Origin: an uncultured Bacillota bacterium
GTDB taxonomy: Bacteria; Bacillota_I; Bacilli_A; RF39; UBA660
NCBI GenBank assembly: GCA_946407495.1
Contig: CAMJOB010000012.1
Span: 1 to 34,162 of the forward strand
Direction of reading: 5' to 3'
DNA: 34,162 nt
Shown here: piece by piece, positions 2,922 through 14,620 of the stretch
How positions within the stretch are numbered: the first letter of the stretch is position 1
Layout: every line of letters starts with the position of its first letter
Position numbers and translations under genes: made by a program
Notes under the pieces: model-generated
What the model was told of the DNA's origin: nothing
Databases searched by the model: none
The model's input: the letters and a program-made list of their open reading frames with translations, nothing else

Positions 2922-3182
<261 letters not shown>

Positions 3183-3184
3183 TT

Positions 3185-3934
3185 ATGGAACCATTAATAA
3201 TTGGCGTTCTATTAGTATTTGTTGCTTTATTAATCTTAGTAATGTTTCTTTTCTTAAAAAAGACTGTTGCTAAGATTAATCAACAGTCTAAAGATTACTT
3301 TGTTGATAAATTACAAGCTTATGATAATTTAATTAAAGAAAGAGAAGAAAAGTTACAAGGATTAAATAAAGATATAGAAGAAAAACAAAAAGAGTTAGAA
3401 AAAGAAGTTGTAAGACCTGAAGTTAATAGTAAGGTATACTTATATGATATTAAGAATATTGACTTCCAAGATGAGAAGATTTTCACTAAAATGAAGGAAG
3501 TTGATCAACGTTTTAATATCGATACAGTAAAATTAATTAAAAGATTTTTAAAAGAACACTTTCAAGACGATACAGTTTTGGAGTATAATAACTATATGAG
3601 GGTAAGGGATTTGTTTGACCAAAAAATGATATTTCGTTTAATATCAATGAGATCAAGCGAACAAGAAAAAGAAGTAAAAGAATTATTAAGGGATTTGGCT
3701 TATCTAGTTGATGATTTCAAAAAGAAGAATAAAAGGTTTGAAGTTAAAAAATTCATTTCTTATTTTGATGATATCATTAGTAAGGTTGATCCTTATGTAT
3801 ATGTATATGTAGGAAGTAAAGATGAAAATTATGATTCAATTGATAAGTTCATTAGAACTAAAGTTGATTCTAATATTTATCGTGGAGTATCTATTGTATA
3901 CAAAAGTAAATTATATGATTATAGCTTAAAATAG
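3185..3934 (+). CDS. b/delta-like peripheral stalk fusion protein
   Basis: N-terminal TM then a charged coiled-coil-like segment (b-like); C-terminus 'RTKVDSNIYRGVSIVYKSKLYDYSLK' resembles the delta/OSCP C-terminal '[21 protein letters not shown]' strand. Lies between c-like and alpha-like genes. Confidence 0.65.
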   Translation: MEPLIIGVLLVFVALLILVMFLFLKKTVAKINQQSKDYFVDKLQAYDNLIKEREEKLQGLNKDIEEKQKELEKEVVRPEVNSKVYLYDIKNIDFQDEKIFTKMKEVDQRFNIDTVKLIKRFLKEHFQDDTVLEYNNYMRVRDLFDQKMIFRLISMRSSEQEKEVKELLRDLAYLVDDFKKKNKRFEVKKFISYFDDIISKVDPYVYVYVGSKDENYDSIDKFIRTKVDSNIYRGVSIVYKSKLYDYSLK

Positions 3935-3946
3935 GAGGTGAAACTC

Positions 3947-6889
3947 ATGGATCAAGATTATGTAGATAAAAAAATCGACGCCAAGATTATCGAGATTAAT
4001 AATAGTGATAATATCTACGAAATTGGTACTGTTGTTAATGTTAAAGAGTTCATCATCGAAGTAACCGGTATTAATAATGTCATGTTCTATGAGAAGATTA
4101 ATATTGCCAACAAGGCTCTCGGTTATGTTAATAGTATTAATGAGAGTTCTGTAACTGTCGCAGTATTAAAGATTGATTCTCCTATTAATGTTGGAGATAT
4201 GGTATATTCTACCAATACATTATATATGGGAGCTTATTCTCCAAGCTCTTTTGGTAGAGTAATTGATTTATTCGGTGTAGATAAACTTTCTGGTCGTAAA
4301 TATAACGATTTAACAGAAATTCCAATTGAACGTAAAACTATTCCAATTATGGATCGTGGTACAGTTAATCGTCCATTACTTACTGGTATTTCCGGTATCG
4401 ACTTAATGTATCCGATTGGTAGAGGTCAACGTCAGTTAATTATCGGTGATAAGAGAACTGGTAAGACACAAATAGGATTAGATGCGATTGTTAATCAAAG
4501 AGGACAAAATGTACTTTGTTTTTATGTTGCAATTGGAAAAACTAAGAAGGAAGTTAAGAATATATATAATGAGTTAATGAAAAAAGGTGCTCTTGATTAT
4601 ACTACTATAATCACTGCATTCAACGATGAGTTACCTCCAGTTATTTCATTAATTCCTTATTTCGCATTAAGTGTTGCGGAAAATTATATGATGCAAGGTT
4701 ATGATATCTTAGTTGTAATCGACGACTTAAAACGTCATGCTGAAGCTTATCGTGAAATTTCACTTATTTCTGGTAAGACTCCAGGACGTGATGCATATCC
4801 TGCAGATATTTTCTATACACATTCGAGATTGCTTGAAAAAGGTTGTCAACATAAGAATGGTGGTTCTATTACAATCCTTCCAATTGTTGAGACTAAGGGT
4901 GGAGATATTACAGATTATATTTCTACTAACGTTATTTCAATTACTGATGGACAAATCGTTTTATCAGATAAAGCATTCCAAAAAGGTGAGAAACCAGCAA
5001 TCAACTATGGTCTTTCAGTATCACGTTTAGGTGGTGCCGTTCAAGAAAAAGACATGAAAGCAGTTGGTTCTGTAGTTCGTCGTAAGTTATTAAGTTATTT
5101 GGAAACTCGAAGCGTATACGAATTAGTTAACATGGATGAAATGAGTCCTGAACTTCGTAATCAGTTTATTGAAGGTAAGGAAATCTTAAGTAAATTATTA
5201 CAATATAAATTCTCTCCTAAGACACCTCAACAAATGATGGCTATGTTTGATGAGATTGTTAATGGACCTAAGGATCCAGAGAAGAGTAAAGATGATCAAT
5301 TCTTAACACAAAATAAAGAAGATTCAGTATTTGATCGTAATAGTGATGATGGTAAATTTGATGAACCAGGAAGCGCTATTCCAGTTCCTAATGCTGATCC
5401 TAATGCACTTGAAGAAGTTACACCTAGTGTTGAGAGAGATATAAGTGCAATTACAAGTGATGGCCCTGTAACTGCTGTTGATGCTAATGAAGCAATTACA
5501 GATCCTGCATTTGCTGTAGAAGAAAAAGAACCTGAGGTTGTTGAAACACCTCAAATAGTAACAGATGAGACTGCTGCTGAGGAACCTTCTATTATTGTTG
5601 CTGCTGATGTACCTCCAGAAGAAGTAGTTCCAACTGAAGAGCTTGCTCCTGTTGATGGAGAAGTACCAGCTGAATTAGTAGTTGATACTGATGTTCCAGT
5701 AGAGGGTGAAGTTCCAACTGAAGAGGTTACTCCTGCATTTGATGTAGAAGAAAAATTACCAAATGAAATTAATCTTGAACCTGATAATATTCCTGCAGGT
5801 TCTGATGGATTTGAATTACCAACTATTGATCAAATGGATAATACAATTGAAATTCCAGTTACTGAGATGAATAATCCAGTTCCTGAAACTGATTTTGCTG
5901 AAGAACCAGTAATTAGTATGGTAATTCCAGAAAACGCTACTGAAGAAGAGGTAGAAGATTTAATTTTACATAATGCACCTCCTGCAATGCCTAAGATGAA
6001 TGATATCTTAGATGATGTTGAAGTAGGTGGAGAAGTTTCATTAGATGTTCCTGGATTTGAAACAGATAAACCTAATGAAGATGAAAAACCTAATGTTGAT
6101 ATTGATTATGACTTAGGTGATGTTGCATTTGAATTATCTGATGCTACTCCTACTGATAAGATAGAAGAAGTAACAGATGAACAAAATGCTGTAGAAGTTC
6201 CTACTGAGGTTAGTGAAGTACCAGTAGAAGGTGAAACTCAAACTGAAGAAGCTCAACCAGTAGAGGATGATAATCAATTCTTATTCTCTATTAATGGAGA
6301 AGGTGAACAACCTGAAGAAGAACCAGCAGATGACTTAACATTATCTGGATTAATCGTAAGAGATGCTCCAGATGGAGAATTTGAAAAGGATACAGATGAA
6401 GAAGACACTAATGTTGAAGAAAGTGTCTATGAAGAACAATTTGTTGAAGATAACAACATTGAAAGCAGTGAAAATGTTGAAAATAAAGACAATTTAGAGA
6501 TTCCTGAGGAAGAAGAAGTATATTCTGAAGAGTTTGAATTTGATTTCCCTGAAGAAGAGAAAACAGAAGAAAAGACTGAAGAAGAACCTGTAGAATATCA
6601 AGAAGAGTTTGAAACTCCTGTAGAAGAGAATAAAGAAGATGATAATTTAAATCTTGATACTCCTGAAGAAGAAGTATATTCTGAAGATTTTGAATTTGAA
6701 TTCCCTGAGGAAGAGAAAGTAGAGGAGACAGTAGAAGAAACTACTGAAGAATCTGCTGAAGAAGAAAACCATGAAGAAAAAGAATTTACTCCTTTTGAAA
6801 AGCCTTCTACAAAGAAGAAGACTAATAAAGGTAGAAAGAAAAAGAATAGTACGAACAATAAGAAGAAGTCAGAGGAAGAAGTGATCTAG
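3947..6889 (+). CDS. F1-like ATPase alpha subunit with long acidic C-terminal extension
   Basis: P-loop GDKRTGKTQ, 'GRDAYPADIFYTHSRLLEK', arginine-finger region 'SVSRLGGAVQEKDMK'. ATG 3947 preferred over the ORF-track GTG at 3938 because of the upstream aggaggtg. Acidic repeat tail from about nt 5263. Confidence 0.93.
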   Translation: MDQDYVDKKIDAKIIEINNSDNIYEIGTVVNVKEFIIEVTGINNVMFYEKINIANKALGYVNSINESSVTVAVLKIDSPINVGDMVYSTNTLYMGAYSPSSFGRVIDLFGVDKLSGRKYNDLTEIPIERKTIPIMDRGTVNRPLLTGISGIDLMYPIGRGQRQLIIGDKRTGKTQIGLDAIVNQRGQNVLCFYVAIGKTKKEVKNIYNELMKKGALDYTTIITAFNDELPPVISLIPYFALSVAENYMMQGYDILVVIDDLKRHAEAYREISLISGKTPGRDAYPADIFYTHSRLLEKGCQHKNGGSITILPIVETKGGDITDYISTNVISITDGQIVLSDKAFQKGEKPAINYGLSVSRLGGAVQEKDMKAVGSVVRRKLLSYLETRSVYELVNMDEMSPELRNQFIEGKEILSKLLQYKFSPKTPQQMMAMFDEIVNGPKDPEKSKDDQFLTQNKEDSVFDRNSDDGKFDEPGSAIPVPNADPNALEEVTPSVERDISAITSDGPVTAVDANEAITDPAFAVEEKEPEVVETPQIVTDETAAEEPSIIVAADVPPEEVVPTEELAPVDGEVPAELVVDTDVPVEGEVPTEEVTPAFDVEEKLPNEINLEPDNIPAGSDGFELPTIDQMDNTIEIPVTEMNNPVPETDFAEEPVISMVIPENATEEEVEDLILHNAPPAMPKMNDILDDVEVGGEVSLDVPGFETDKPNEDEKPNVDIDYDLGDVAFELSDATPTDKIEEVTDEQNAVEVPTEVSEVPVEGETQTEEAQPVEDDNQFLFSINGEGEQPEEEPADDLTLSGLIVRDAPDGEFEKDTDEEDTNVEESVYEEQFVEDNNIESSENVENKDNLEIPEEEEVYSEEFEFDFPEEEKTEEKTEEEPVEYQEEFETPVEENKEDDNLNLDTPEEEVYSEDFEFEFPEEEKVEETVEETTEESAEEENHEEKEFTPFEKPSTKKKTNKGRKKKNSTNNKKKSEEEVI

Positions 6890-6890
6890 T

Positions 6891-7661
6891 ATGGGTGTAC
6901 GTAACGTTGTAAAAGTTATGAACTTCCACTCTCTTCTTCGAGTTGATAAAGCTAGAAGAAAAGCTGCTATGTATTTCGATACTGAAGCAGAGTTATTTAA
7001 GGTTATTCGTAAGATTCTTTACAATAGAAATATTATTTTAGATAAGAAAGCTATTAGTCCTAAACCTAATGCTCCTGTCTTAAATATTTATATTGGTAAT
7101 GACTTGGGGTTCTGTGGAGACTTTAACTTTGCGATTAATAAAGAAGTTCGCAATGATTATGAGTATAAGATATTAATTGGTAAAAAGATTCATACTAGAG
7201 AAGATGAAGATAAAGTTATTCTTCATATTACAAAAGATGAATTCTTTGATAGTTTTAAGAAAGTGGAAGATTTAATATATGATGGTGTAGTTGAACGTAA
7301 GTATCGTGAGATTAACGTTATCTATAACCATTATCATAATGTTAACTCATTGGAGTTTACTAAGAAAAAGTTGTTTCCACTTGATTATGATTCTGAATCA
7401 GAGGGTGAAACCTTTGATGAAGACTTTGCAATGGAGACTGATTTAGCTCCAATGCTTAATAACTTAATAGCACTTTACTTGTGTTATGAGTTAAAAATCT
7501 GTGAAATGAATAGTTATGCTGCTGAGAACGTTGTTCGTCAGCAATTAACTAATGAATCACTTAAAAAGATTGACGAAATGGAAGAAGAGAAATTCAAAGT
7601 TCGTCGTAAGCTTAAAAAGCAAAAGGATTTTCAAAAGATTATTGAAAACTTTAGAAAATAA
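6891..7661 (+). CDS. F1-like ATPase gamma subunit
   Basis: Position between alpha and beta; gamma-like 'NIYIGNDLGFCGDFNFAINKEV' and C-terminal helix 'NNLIALYLCYELKICEMNSYAAENVVRQQLTNESLKKID'. Confidence 0.82.
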   Translation: MGVRNVVKVMNFHSLLRVDKARRKAAMYFDTEAELFKVIRKILYNRNIILDKKAISPKPNAPVLNIYIGNDLGFCGDFNFAINKEVRNDYEYKILIGKKIHTREDEDKVILHITKDEFFDSFKKVEDLIYDGVVERKYREINVIYNHYHNVNSLEFTKKKLFPLDYDSESEGETFDEDFAMETDLAPMLNNLIALYLCYELKICEMNSYAAENVVRQQLTNESLKKIDEMEEEKFKVRRKLKKQKDFQKIIENFRK

Positions 7662-7668
7662 TATTTAG

Positions 7669-9280
<1,612 letters not shown>

Positions 9281-9283
9281 AAT

Positions 9284-9835
9284 ATGTCACTTAATCAATT
9301 AATGAGTGTAATGTTAGAATTTACAATGTTTTTTATAGTATTTCTTGTTTTCTTAGAATTATTATCATATGTAGTCTTAGATAAAAAAAGTAAGAATAAT
9401 ACCATTGAGGGTGTAAGAGTTCATTTCTTTGGTTTACTTATGGAGCTTGAAGATTTTACTATTCTTGCATTATCTGTATTATTAATTCGTTTTGTCTTTG
9501 TTATATGGACATTGTTTGATAATATAGCAATTAGTGATTTCCATGTTGTTGTATTAATTGCATTTACAATATTATATGGATTGTTTTCTAAGAGTATTAA
9601 GAATTTAGTATTTGAATCATTTAATAGTTTTACTTTATACTTTGCTTTACTTGCAAGTAGAGTATTAACTAATTATTTGATTGAAGTACGTTATGAATGG
9701 TATGTATTTACTGGTGATATATTATTAAAGATCTTTATCATTATCTATTCGACATTCTTCTTATTAAGAAATATCAATAGTTTAATTGTTAAGACTCGAT
9801 ATATCAGGAGGGAAAGAAATGAAGAAAGTATTTAG
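9284..9835 (+). CDS. Polytopic (~5 TM) membrane protein of the F1-like ATPase cluster
   Basis: 183 aa, about five hydrophobic segments, 3 nt after epsilon stop. Confidence 0.7.
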   Translation: MSLNQLMSVMLEFTMFFIVFLVFLELLSYVVLDKKSKNNTIEGVRVHFFGLLMELEDFTILALSVLLIRFVFVIWTLFDNIAISDFHVVVLIAFTILYGLFSKSIKNLVFESFNSFTLYFALLASRVLTNYLIEVRYEWYVFTGDILLKIFIIIYSTFFLLRNINSLIVKTRYIRRERNEESI

Positions 9836-10532
9836 TAGAAGTAATTTAAAATGGCTTGCTTTATTAATAATAATTATTATTCTAGCTATTTTGTTTTCTT
9901 TCAAACGTGATATTGATGTTATTGAAATAAAGAATCGTACTTTATACCAATATTTTGCTGGTATTAAAGTAGAATATAAAGGTTCTATACGTATTAATAA
10001 GACAGAAGATGAAGTAACAGAATTAACTTTTAAAGATCAAGATATTGAATTAGATACAACTCCTATATTCTTTAAAGGAGAAAAACGTGTTTTATTTCCT
10101 AAGAATATGGCAGTTATCTATCCTTTAAGAGGAGTTCAATACAAAATTAACTATTATTCTGAATTATATGAAGACTATACTGAGTTTTCTTTAAAAGATG
10201 GTAGTTTAGATAAGAGATTATTTGATGCATTAATTTATGATGGAAATGATATTTACTTATTTACTGAAAAGACTACTGTTACTTTTGGAGATAAGAAGTT
10301 TGAATTAGATCCATTATCTTATGTAATAGTTGATACTTTAAATAATCAAGTTTCTGTGTATGATTATACACATGATGAATTCCAATTATATGAAAATGTT
10401 AGTGATCAAGTAATTATTACTAATGGTAAATATAAAGTAAATGCTAGTTTGGATTTAATGTATTATAATGATACTTCTAAGTTATTTATAAAAGATGTAT
10501 CTAAATTAATGAATTTACCTAAAAAAGATTGA
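9819..10532 (+). CDS. Single-TM protein with large predicted extracellular domain, last gene of the cluster
   Basis: ATG 9819 preceded by SD aggaggg; N-terminal KKVFSRSNLKWLALLIIIIILAILFSF then a beta-rich soluble region; overlaps the preceding gene. Confidence 0.75.
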   Translation: MKKVFSRSNLKWLALLIIIIILAILFSFKRDIDVIEIKNRTLYQYFAGIKVEYKGSIRINKTEDEVTELTFKDQDIELDTTPIFFKGEKRVLFPKNMAVIYPLRGVQYKINYYSELYEDYTEFSLKDGSLDKRLFDALIYDGNDIYLFTEKTTVTFGDKKFELDPLSYVIVDTLNNQVSVYDYTHDEFQLYENVSDQVIITNGKYKVNASLDLMYYNDTSKLFIKDVSKLMNLPKKD

Positions 10533-12156: not shown

Positions 12157-13353
12157 ATGAAATTTTTATGTGTTAATGCTGGTAGTAGTTCTTTAAAATT
12201 TCAATTATTTGAAATGCCAGAAGAAAAAGTAATCATTAGTGGTTATATTGAAAAAATTGGTTTTGAAGATTCATTCTGGAATACTAAAATCAATGGAGAA
12301 AAAATTAGAGGAGAAAAATATTTAAAGAATCATACTGAAGCAGTTCAAGTTATGTTAGATGAATTAATTAAACATAAAGCTGTTGAATCTTTAGATGAAA
12401 TTAAGGGTGTAGGACATCGTGTACTTCATGGTGGAGAAAAATATTCTGATTCAGTATTAATCGATGATCAAGTAGTTCAAGATATCAAAGATCTTACTAA
12501 ATTAGGACCTCTTCATCACCCAGGAAACTTAGCTGGTATTGAAGCAATGCAAAAAGCATTACCAGGAGTTCCTAATGTTGCTGTATTCGATACTGCATTC
12601 CATCAAACAATGCCTGCAGTAAATTATATGTACCCAGTACCATATGAATGGTATGAAAAATATGGAGTACGTAAATATGGATTCCATGGAACAAGTCATA
12701 AATATATTACTGAAACAATGAAGAAGATGTTAGGAAAAGATGATGTTAACCTAATCATTTGTCACGTTGGATCTGGAGCTTCTATTAGTTGTATCAAAGA
12801 TGGTAAATGTTATGATACTACTATGGGTCTTACTCCACTTGATGGTTTAATGATGGGAACTAGATGTGGTTCTATCGATCCATCAATTATTGAATATGTT
12901 TGTAAAGAATCAGGAAAAGATGTTTCTGAAATCACTAATGATTTAAATAAGAAGAGTGGTTTAATTGGTATTTGTGGATTTAACGATAATAGAGACGTTG
13001 AAAAAGCAATTGCTGCTGGAGATGAAAGAGCTAAACTTGCTTTAGATATGTACATCGATATTATTAATCGTTATATTGCTGAATACTATATTGAATTAGA
13101 TGGTAAAGTAGATGCTATTGTTATGACTGCTGGAGTATTAGAAAACGGTAGTGAAACAAGAGAAGCTATTCTTACTAAATTAAAACCATTAGGTATTGAA
13201 GTTAATAAAGAAGTTAATGATAAGATTGCTGGATTTAAAGAATTACATGAAGGATGTATTACAACTGATAAATCTTCAATCCCTGCATATGTAATCCCTA
13301 CAAATGAAGAGATTATGATTATTAGAGACACATATAAAATATGTAATAAATAA
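12157..13353 (+). CDS. ackA: Acetate kinase
   Basis: 'VNAGSSSLKFQ', 'GHRVLHGGE', 'FDTAFHQTMP', 'YGFHGTSHKY', 'MGTRCGSIDPS', 'IPTNEEIMIIRDT'. Confidence 0.96.
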   Translation: MKFLCVNAGSSSLKFQLFEMPEEKVIISGYIEKIGFEDSFWNTKINGEKIRGEKYLKNHTEAVQVMLDELIKHKAVESLDEIKGVGHRVLHGGEKYSDSVLIDDQVVQDIKDLTKLGPLHHPGNLAGIEAMQKALPGVPNVAVFDTAFHQTMPAVNYMYPVPYEWYEKYGVRKYGFHGTSHKYITETMKKMLGKDDVNLIICHVGSGASISCIKDGKCYDTTMGLTPLDGLMMGTRCGSIDPSIIEYVCKESGKDVSEITNDLNKKSGLIGICGFNDNRDVEKAIAAGDERAKLALDMYIDIINRYIAEYYIELDGKVDAIVMTAGVLENGSETREAILTKLKPLGIEVNKEVNDKIAGFKELHEGCITTDKSSIPAYVIPTNEEIMIIRDTYKICNK

Positions 13354-13380: not shown

Positions 13381-13435
13381 ATTCTCCTTATTCTTGTTGT
13401 ATAATATTAGTAGATTTGGAAGAAGGAGAGATTAT

Positions 13436-14620
13436 ATGAAAATATTATCCATTAATTCTGAAAATAATAAATTAAGATTTTTTTTATTTGATATGAGAGA
13501 TGAAAGTATTATTGCAGATGGATTATTTGAACGTATTGGATTAGATGGTAGTACTTTTAGTATAAATCTTGGAGAAGAGAAGATTATTCAAGAAATAGAA
13601 GTTACAACTCATGAAGATACAATTCCAATTATTGTAGATAAATTAATTGCTTTAGAAGTAATTAAATCTGTAGATGAAATATCTGCTTTTGGACATAGAG
13701 TAGTATATGGAAAGGATTTATTCCCAGAATCAGTAATGGTTACTGATGAAGTAATGGCTAAATTAGATAGTATTAAAGAATATAGTTCTATTTATGGACC
13801 TTCTAATGATTTAGCTATTTCTAAATGTAGAGAATTATATCCTACTATACCTAATGTAGCAGTATTTGATACTTCATTTAATAGTACAATTGAAGAGAAG
13901 GAATATTTATATTCTGTACCATATAAATGGTTTAAAGATTATGGTATTCGTAAATATGGATATCATGGTACTTCTCATAGATATATTACTGAGTGTTTTA
14001 GAGAAATGCTTGGAAGAGATGATTTTAAATTAATTAGTTGTCATATGGGTACTGTTGGTAGTATTAGTGCAATTAAGAATTTAAAATGTGTTGATACTTC
14101 TACTGGATTTACTCCATTAGCTGGTATTATGACTGGTACTAGATCAGGTGATATTGATCCATCTATTTTACCTTTTGTAATGGAAAGAGAAGGAAAGAAT
14201 GTTGGAGAAATACTTGATGATTTAAGTAGAAGTAGTGGTTTATTAGGACTAAGTGAATTTTCATCAGATATGCGTGACATTAATGCTAAATGTGATGAAG
14301 GTGATGAAAGAGCTTTAGTTGCTAGAGCCATTTATGTTAGAAAAGTTGTTGATTACATTGCTCAATACTATGTATTATTAGGAGGAGCAGATGTTATAGC
14401 ATTTACTGCTGGTATTGGAGAAAACTCTATTCCAGTACGTAGATTAATATGTGAAGCTTTAGCTCCATTAGGTGTTAAGATTGACTTAGATGCAAATAAT
14501 TGTATGGGAGAAAAAGTTAAGATTAGTACACCTGATTCTAAGATTGAGGTATGGGTAATACCTACTCAAGAAGGATTAATGATTGCTAGAGATACAATGA
14601 ATATAATAAAGAATAGATAG
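13436..14620 (+). CDS. Divergent acetate kinase paralogue
   Basis: Full-length similarity to ackA ('YGYHGTSHRYI', 'TGTRSGDIDPS', 'TAGIGENS', 'IPTQEGLMIARDT'), but N-terminal motif is 'INSENNKLRFF' and HGG is 'YGK'. ATG 13436 after ggagag. Confidence 0.85.
   Translation: MKILSINSENNKLRFFLFDMRDESIIADGLFERIGLDGSTFSINLGEEKIIQEIEVTTHEDTIPIIVDKLIALEVIKSVDEISAFGHRVVYGKDLFPESVMVTDEVMAKLDSIKEYSSIYGPSNDLAISKCRELYPTIPNVAVFDTSFNSTIEEKEYLYSVPYKWFKDYGIRKYGYHGTSHRYITECFREMLGRDDFKLISCHMGTVGSISAIKNLKCVDTSTGFTPLAGIMTGTRSGDIDPSILPFVMEREGKNVGEILDDLSRSSGLLGLSEFSSDMRDINAKCDEGDERALVARAIYVRKVVDYIAQYYVLLGGADVIAFTAGIGENSIPVRRLICEALAPLGVKIDLDANNCMGEKVKISTPDSKIEVWVIPTQEGLMIARDTMNIIKNR

Follow-up and report, generated by a model that had tools for sequence, protein, structure and literature searches.

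Gene content of the locus

The window, i.e. the whole stretch of 34,162 nucleotides from an uncultured Bacillota bacterium analysed here (genome completeness 68%), harbors a module of F1-like ATPase subunits and membrane-anchored surface proteins with the following features, all of which are encoded on the forward strand.

1-1449, +, giant membrane-anchored surface protein, C-terminal 482 residues (profile match, synteny in relatives)
1470-2915, +, 481-aa single-pass surface protein (AlphaFold2 pLDDT 78.6, Foldseek)
2937-3182, +, c subunit, 81 aa (PF00137, 32 bits, over cut-off)
3185-3934, +, b/delta-like stalk protein, 249 aa (N-terminal TM; C-terminal 28 residues like the delta C-terminus)
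3947-5266, +, F1 alpha body, residues 1-440, C-terminal domain truncated (Pfam, orthologue comparison)
5267-6886, +, acidic, predicted disordered C-terminal tail of alpha, 540 residues (composition, AlphaFold2, charge-hydropathy)
5942-5971, +, only predicted tail helix, residues 666-675, coinciding with a short motif that recurs in same-genus tails (AlphaFold2, motif count)
6812-6868, +, Lys-rich segment, residues 956-974, not conserved in the relatives' long tails (composition, orthologue comparison)
6871-6885, +, AGAGGAAGAAGTGAT, coding for the conserved EEEV(I) end, where the ribosome-binding site of gamma (ATG 6891) must be (orthologue comparison)
6891-7661, +, gamma subunit, 256 aa (PF00231, E 7e-24)
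7684-9054, +, beta subunit with intact P-loop, catalytic GER motif and DELSEED-like loop (Pfam, motif check)
9032-9280, +, epsilon-like subunit of about 82 aa, restricted to the N-terminal domain (position, length, sequence pattern)
9284-9835, +, hydrophobic membrane protein with several spans, 183 aa, where subunit a would stand (relatives' alignment, hhalign)
9819-10532, +, single-pass membrane protein, part of it predicted to be extracellular (TM248; conserved in the module)

The operon set used for comparison comprises the window and 39 relatives (40 loci, 39 of which include alpha). The order giant surface protein, 481-aa protein, c, b/delta-like protein and alpha is conserved, followed by gamma, beta and epsilon in one of two orders and, at the end of the module, by the 183-aa membrane protein and the second single-pass protein. 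In the relatives the giant surface protein is approximately 1700-2000 aa long at full length with an N-terminal TM segment, and its fn3-like domains are weak (fn3 E 1.1e-4, below the curated cut-off). The 481-aa protein is composed of a TM segment (7-35), a beta domain, a disordered Asn-rich linker (227-288) and two fn3-like domains, and the best Foldseek matches of its model are tandem fn3 proteins. The b/delta-like protein is aligned to canonical delta by hhalign with an E value of 5.6e-5 (probability 66%) and has no significant match among PDB sequences; its assignment, made from synteny and this weak match, carries moderate confidence. The epsilon-like ORF, if started at GTG, begins at 9023 and gives no Pfam match.

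Further observations concern individual genes in and around the module. Directly behind ackA (12157-13353) the window encodes a second acetate kinase copy (13394-14620) with the N-terminal motif NSENNKLRF in place of NAGSSSLKF in ackA, and this copy may be impaired; the L032 copy keeps CGSSSLKF. Downstream of the module, two relatives (L071:14626-18999 and L136:7019-16609) encode membrane-anchored proteins of very large size, up to 3196 aa, both strongly matching the ALK/LTK glycine-rich domain (E 8.5e-50 and 3.5e-39, respectively). Small helical ORFs near the module (L035:11125-11511, L033:13241-16000) are reminiscent of WXG100/LXG-type secreted proteins. The beta gene of L036 (4812-6161, genome G023) is broken by an in-frame stop, which may mark a pseudogene or be an error of the assembly.

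The alpha subunit and its C-terminal tail

Alpha is encoded by one open frame of 980 residues (3947-6889, forward strand) with the stop codon TAG at 6887-6889. The start codon ATG 3947 follows a strong, textbook Shine-Dalgarno sequence, AGGAGGTGA, at close distance, and this element includes the alternative start GTG 3938. Residues 1-440, ending with ...FDEIVNG, form the F1 alpha body (Pfam ATP-synt_ab, E 3.5e-72), which is 39-43% identical to canonical Bacilli alphas; no Pfam domain was matched in residues 441-980. This tail contains 22.6% Glu and 10.0% Asp (33% D/E) together with 9.8% Val and 9.3% Pro, and its 540 residues carry a net charge of -143. Among 529 ORFs of the window and its relatives, the most acidic 100-residue stretch (50 D/E) is located in the window tail. 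The frame is coding throughout, with a GC content by codon position of 0.63/0.30/0.12 in the tail.

The disorder expected by the sequence-only reading was found by both predictions employed. AlphaFold2 assigns pLDDT values of approximately 30-40 to most of residues 441-980, in a model built on a shallow alignment in which parts of the body are low as well, and predicts a single short helix in the tail at residues 666-675. The charge-hydropathy analysis classifies the tail as disordered and the body as folded.

Tails of more than 100 residues are found in the same place in 11 of the 39 alphas (three of them cut by contig ends), so that ten other genomes share this feature and the window tail is no single-assembly artefact. 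The long tails belong to two clades of eight (including the window) and three sequences, each with 100/100 support. Comparison with orthologues, proposed earlier as a check, gave a divided answer: the long tail is absent from the other 28 alphas, four of which have tails of 27-57 residues and the rest essentially none, and it is present in all seven nearest relatives of the window alpha in the tree. ORF position, composition, coding frame and the ten other tailed genomes agree with the original claim of an approximately 540-residue acidic tail on alpha, and sequence and models together identify it as a genuine, coding, strongly acidic and, by prediction, intrinsically disordered extension. Long, disordered, acidic cytoplasmic arms are thereby backed by sequence and prediction.

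Two details of the sequence-only reading have to be modified. The tail had been thought to replace the last helices of alpha. The subunit is indeed truncated, but all 39 orthologous alphas end about 60 residues before the canonical end, tailed and tail-less ones alike, so that the loss of the helices characterises the class rather than the tail. Furthermore, the 'basic tips' assigned to the arms did not hold up: apart from the window tail, a Lys-rich end is present only in L036, whose tail is short (57 residues), and a basic tip as a functional element was rejected, as it is not conserved among the relatives. The only strictly conserved tail end is formed by the last residues EEEEV(I/L). Since the codons for these residues also hold the gamma ribosome-binding site, they need no explanation at the protein level, and a binding motif at this position was rejected.

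Within the window's clade the bodies are 81-90% identical and the tails only 26-38%, a value not far from the expectation from shared composition alone. Long open tails are nevertheless found in all eight members, most of the full-length ones with 26-33% D/E and 0-6% K/R. The tails of the congeners L071 and L072 comprise 120 and 403 residues, respectively, the former with only 12% D/E, and the L035 tail is Lys-rich and near neutral overall. Internal repeats exceed those of shuffled sequences in eight of nine tails tested, and the tandem repeats are private to single genomes. A short motif, approximately [TSP]x[EQ][ED]Vxx[AV][VT], occurs in 5, 3 and 5 copies in the tails of L032, L033 and L034, numbers reached by none of 500 shuffles; these statistics are only suggestive, since the motif was defined after the sequences had been seen. 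The window tail contains one copy, which coincides with the predicted helix 666-675 and lies within chance (p 0.13).

The genus label g8 comprises alphas from two lineages (G348 and G502 versus G012) that differ in gene order, one alpha being tailed and two not, which suggests that the module was transferred horizontally or that the genus is broad.

In the large tail-poor lineage, a separate acidic ORF directly follows gamma in 13 of 21 loci, several of these ORFs having coiled-coil-like N-terminal parts. Acidic ORFs after gamma next to an alpha without a long tail are seen in L081 (4205-5974), L082, L085 and L086, and shorter ones directly after gamma in L036, L078, L080, L084, L092, L096 and L132. 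Those of L090, L092, L093 and L096, from two genera, share the C-terminal sequence FPKI(D/E)(K/R)FGSV, suggestive of a short binding motif. With the L086 acidic protein as query, no match was obtained in 11 of 14 genomes, including all eight tailed ones of this set; homology between fused tails and separate acidic proteins is thus not detectable, and a relation by fusion or fission is not supported. Some lineages without a long alpha tail may use the separate acidic gene after gamma for a related function. An acidic arm on every motor is not established, since several tail-less loci (e.g. L075, L077 and L079) are also devoid of a separate acidic gene in the locus.

Ion site, catalytic residues and relation to known F1-like ATPases

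None of the 40 c subunits carries Asp or Glu at the position equivalent to E. coli D61, which is occupied by Ser (14), Thr (13), Ala (12) or Met (1). In the window c a threonine is found here, and TM2 contains no acidic residue. A single c was detected with PF00137 in each of 14 module-bearing genomes, one of them a single-contig assembly. Subunit a (PF00119) was over the cut-off in none of these 14 and was found in both canonical relatives. The 183-aa membrane protein was tried as subunit a and rejected, as hhalign gave no match and neither a conserved Arg nor any invariant residue is present. The epsilon subunit measures 80-91 aa in all members and consists of the N-terminal domain only, lacking the inhibitory C-terminal helices. 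The catalytic elements are largely kept: the P-loop is present in 33 of 34 betas, the single miss being a broken frame, and the Arg finger pattern in 35 of 39 alphas; the window has the catalytic P-loops, the catalytic Glu context and the alpha Arg finger. By these sequence features the complex is not a normal ATP synthase, which the sequence-only reading had missed. As a separate observation, the c of L032 (4818-5063) is the only one of the 40 with an acidic residue in TM2, an Asp one position before the ion site.

Among 388 genomes of the family, 33 encode an alpha of the window kind and three a canonical alpha, the rest giving no match; the congener G002 (95% completeness) likewise gives none. 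In samples of the order (28/385) and of the class (5/395) every hit lies inside the family. All 39 module alphas form one branch of the tree apart from the canonical alphas (100/100), and a published description of the module was not found in the open-access literature searched.

In order to compare the module with known classes, alpha and beta of the window were scored against NCBIfam profiles. Both are below the canonical cut-offs (alpha 382 versus 484, TIGR00962; beta 449 versus 463, TIGR01039, a narrow miss), as well as below those of Type 2/G1 (alpha 376 versus 600, MMOB1660; beta 358 versus 850, MMOB1670), Type 3 (alpha 298 versus 520, MSC_0619; beta 403 versus 570, MSC_0618) and N-ATPase (alpha 356 versus 750, TIGR03324; beta 394 versus 752, TIGR03305). 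The window alpha scores 329 bits to the best canonical alpha versus 273 to M. mobile G1-alpha (9io5_D). Type 2 and Type 3 clusters consist of seven genes including one for a 12-TM protein, without c, b or delta (PMC3369863, PMC12994834), and the window does not show this arrangement. Since alpha and beta fall below the Type 2, Type 3 and N-ATPase cut-offs and alpha is nearer to the canonical one, an independent derivation from the canonical enzyme is more likely than membership of one of the known classes.

The Type 2 G1-ATPase of M. mobile gliding shares with the window module an F1-like head without ion-pumping F0, one subunit that reaches past the canonical fold and a proposed coupling to surface machinery. 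Its extension, however, is located N-terminally on beta and partly folded, whereas that of the window is C-terminal on alpha; the G1-beta extension recruits phosphoglycerate kinase (PGK) and helps to link two motors (PMC11864180). The Type 2 cluster has the 12-TM protein and neither a peripheral stalk nor c; in the window, c and a b/delta-like protein are present and a 12-TM ORF is absent. The Type 3 F1-like X0 ATPase, which is associated with MIB-MIP in mycoplasmas (PMC12994834; PMC3369863), is also a rotary ATPase beside surface-protein genes and no ATP synthase, but it has no c, b or delta homologue, and the window in turn has no recognised MIB or MIP. With canonical F1Fo the module has homologous alpha, beta, gamma, c and, weakly, b/delta as well as the P-loops and the Arg finger in common; it differs by the carboxylate-less c, the missing subunit a, the short epsilon, the truncated alpha, another gene order and the surface-protein genes in the cluster. 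Mycobacterial alpha likewise extends past the usual C-terminal end of F1 alpha, yet by approximately 35 residues on a complete subunit, whereas in the window 540 disordered acidic residues stand in place of the last helices.

Possible function of the motor and its tails

Almost all known rotary F-type ATPases are ion-coupled enzymes, mycoplasmas providing two exceptions (gliding and antibody removal). The module described here would add another exception, apparently of separate origin, to these two mycoplasma types. ATP hydrolysis and rotation by the complex, in the absence of ion movement, are probable, and the residue loss together with the gene neighbourhood indicates that the complex most likely acts on surface proteins. 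A mechanical surface motor is thus probable rather than an ATP synthase, because the ion-site residues are lost and giant surface proteins are encoded alongside. ATP hydrolysis would turn gamma and the ion-free c-ring, and motion or strain would be handed on to the surface proteins.

In solved F1 structures the alpha C-terminal domain is positioned at the membrane-proximal end of the head. From there the tails, three per head, would leave alpha and serve as multivalent flexible arms, which would dock cytoplasmic partners or neighbouring motors via short helical motifs spaced by acidic disordered linkers. Tethering of the heads to each other, to a cytoskeleton or to ribosomes is plausible by analogy with the G1-beta extension of M. 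mobile, and docking arms are favoured on the strength of this parallel. Such a repurposed F1-like rotary ATPase with alpha tails as flexible cytoplasmic docking arms is the reading we prefer, and we consider it about evenly balanced between right and wrong. The motif repeats in three congeners, coinciding with the sole predicted helix of the window, argue for docking; against it, tail sequence, length and even acidity vary, and most orthologues (28 of 39) do without a long tail. The wider proposal is tentative, although a real possibility: the module may represent a further, independently derived F1-like class of rotary ATPase in uncultured Bacilli, in which a c-ring without ion site acts as mechanical rotor (or anchor) driving giant fibronectin-like surface proteins. 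A b/delta-type stalk would hold it, and the disordered alpha tails, or else a separate acidic protein, would connect the motors with one another or with cytoplasmic partners.

Alternatively, the tail could be a nearly neutral low-complexity expansion: after the C-terminal helices of alpha had been lost, tandem duplication and drift would have extended a harmless disordered end, the sole constraint being retention of the ribosome-binding site of gamma. The fast turnover (tails 26-38% versus bodies 81-90%), the large length differences within a genus, the genome-private tandem repeats, the lack of a long tail in most orthologues and the ribosome-binding site as an explanation of the one end that is strictly conserved, EEEEV(I/L), are all consistent with this. 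We nevertheless regard both the neutral origin and this sole constraint as rather unlikely, as long open tails run through the whole eight-member clade, most full-length ones with 26-33% D/E and 0-6% K/R, and as the motif repeats recur in three congeners.

The tail might also regulate ATP hydrolysis or rotation like the shorter mycobacterial alpha C-terminus, which blocks hydrolysis and docks into gamma (PMC8698299). It would exit alpha near the rotor, if known F1 structures are a guide, and epsilon of all members (80-91 aa) is devoid of the inhibitory C-terminal helices. However, 540 residues are far above the needs of a latch, no conserved gamma-docking segment is found between the tails and tail-less orthologues equally lack the epsilon helices, which makes this role improbable. 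That the complex is a conventional ATP synthase or ion pump carrying a decorated alpha is disfavored and very improbable, since despite recognisable F1 subunits (alpha 39-43% identical to canonical Bacilli alphas) and remaining c and b/delta-like subunits, the canonical ion-site carboxylate is absent in 40 of 40 c, there is no subunit a, alpha and beta are under the NCBIfam atpA and atpD cut-offs and most genomes of the family do not have the module.

If the reading as a repurposed motor is true, the module would show how an ion-driven rotor can become purely mechanical, and it would provide a natural test of what a c-ring does without ions while c is still recognisable. The tail would then offer a simple handle for studying how motors of this type are attached to the cell interior.
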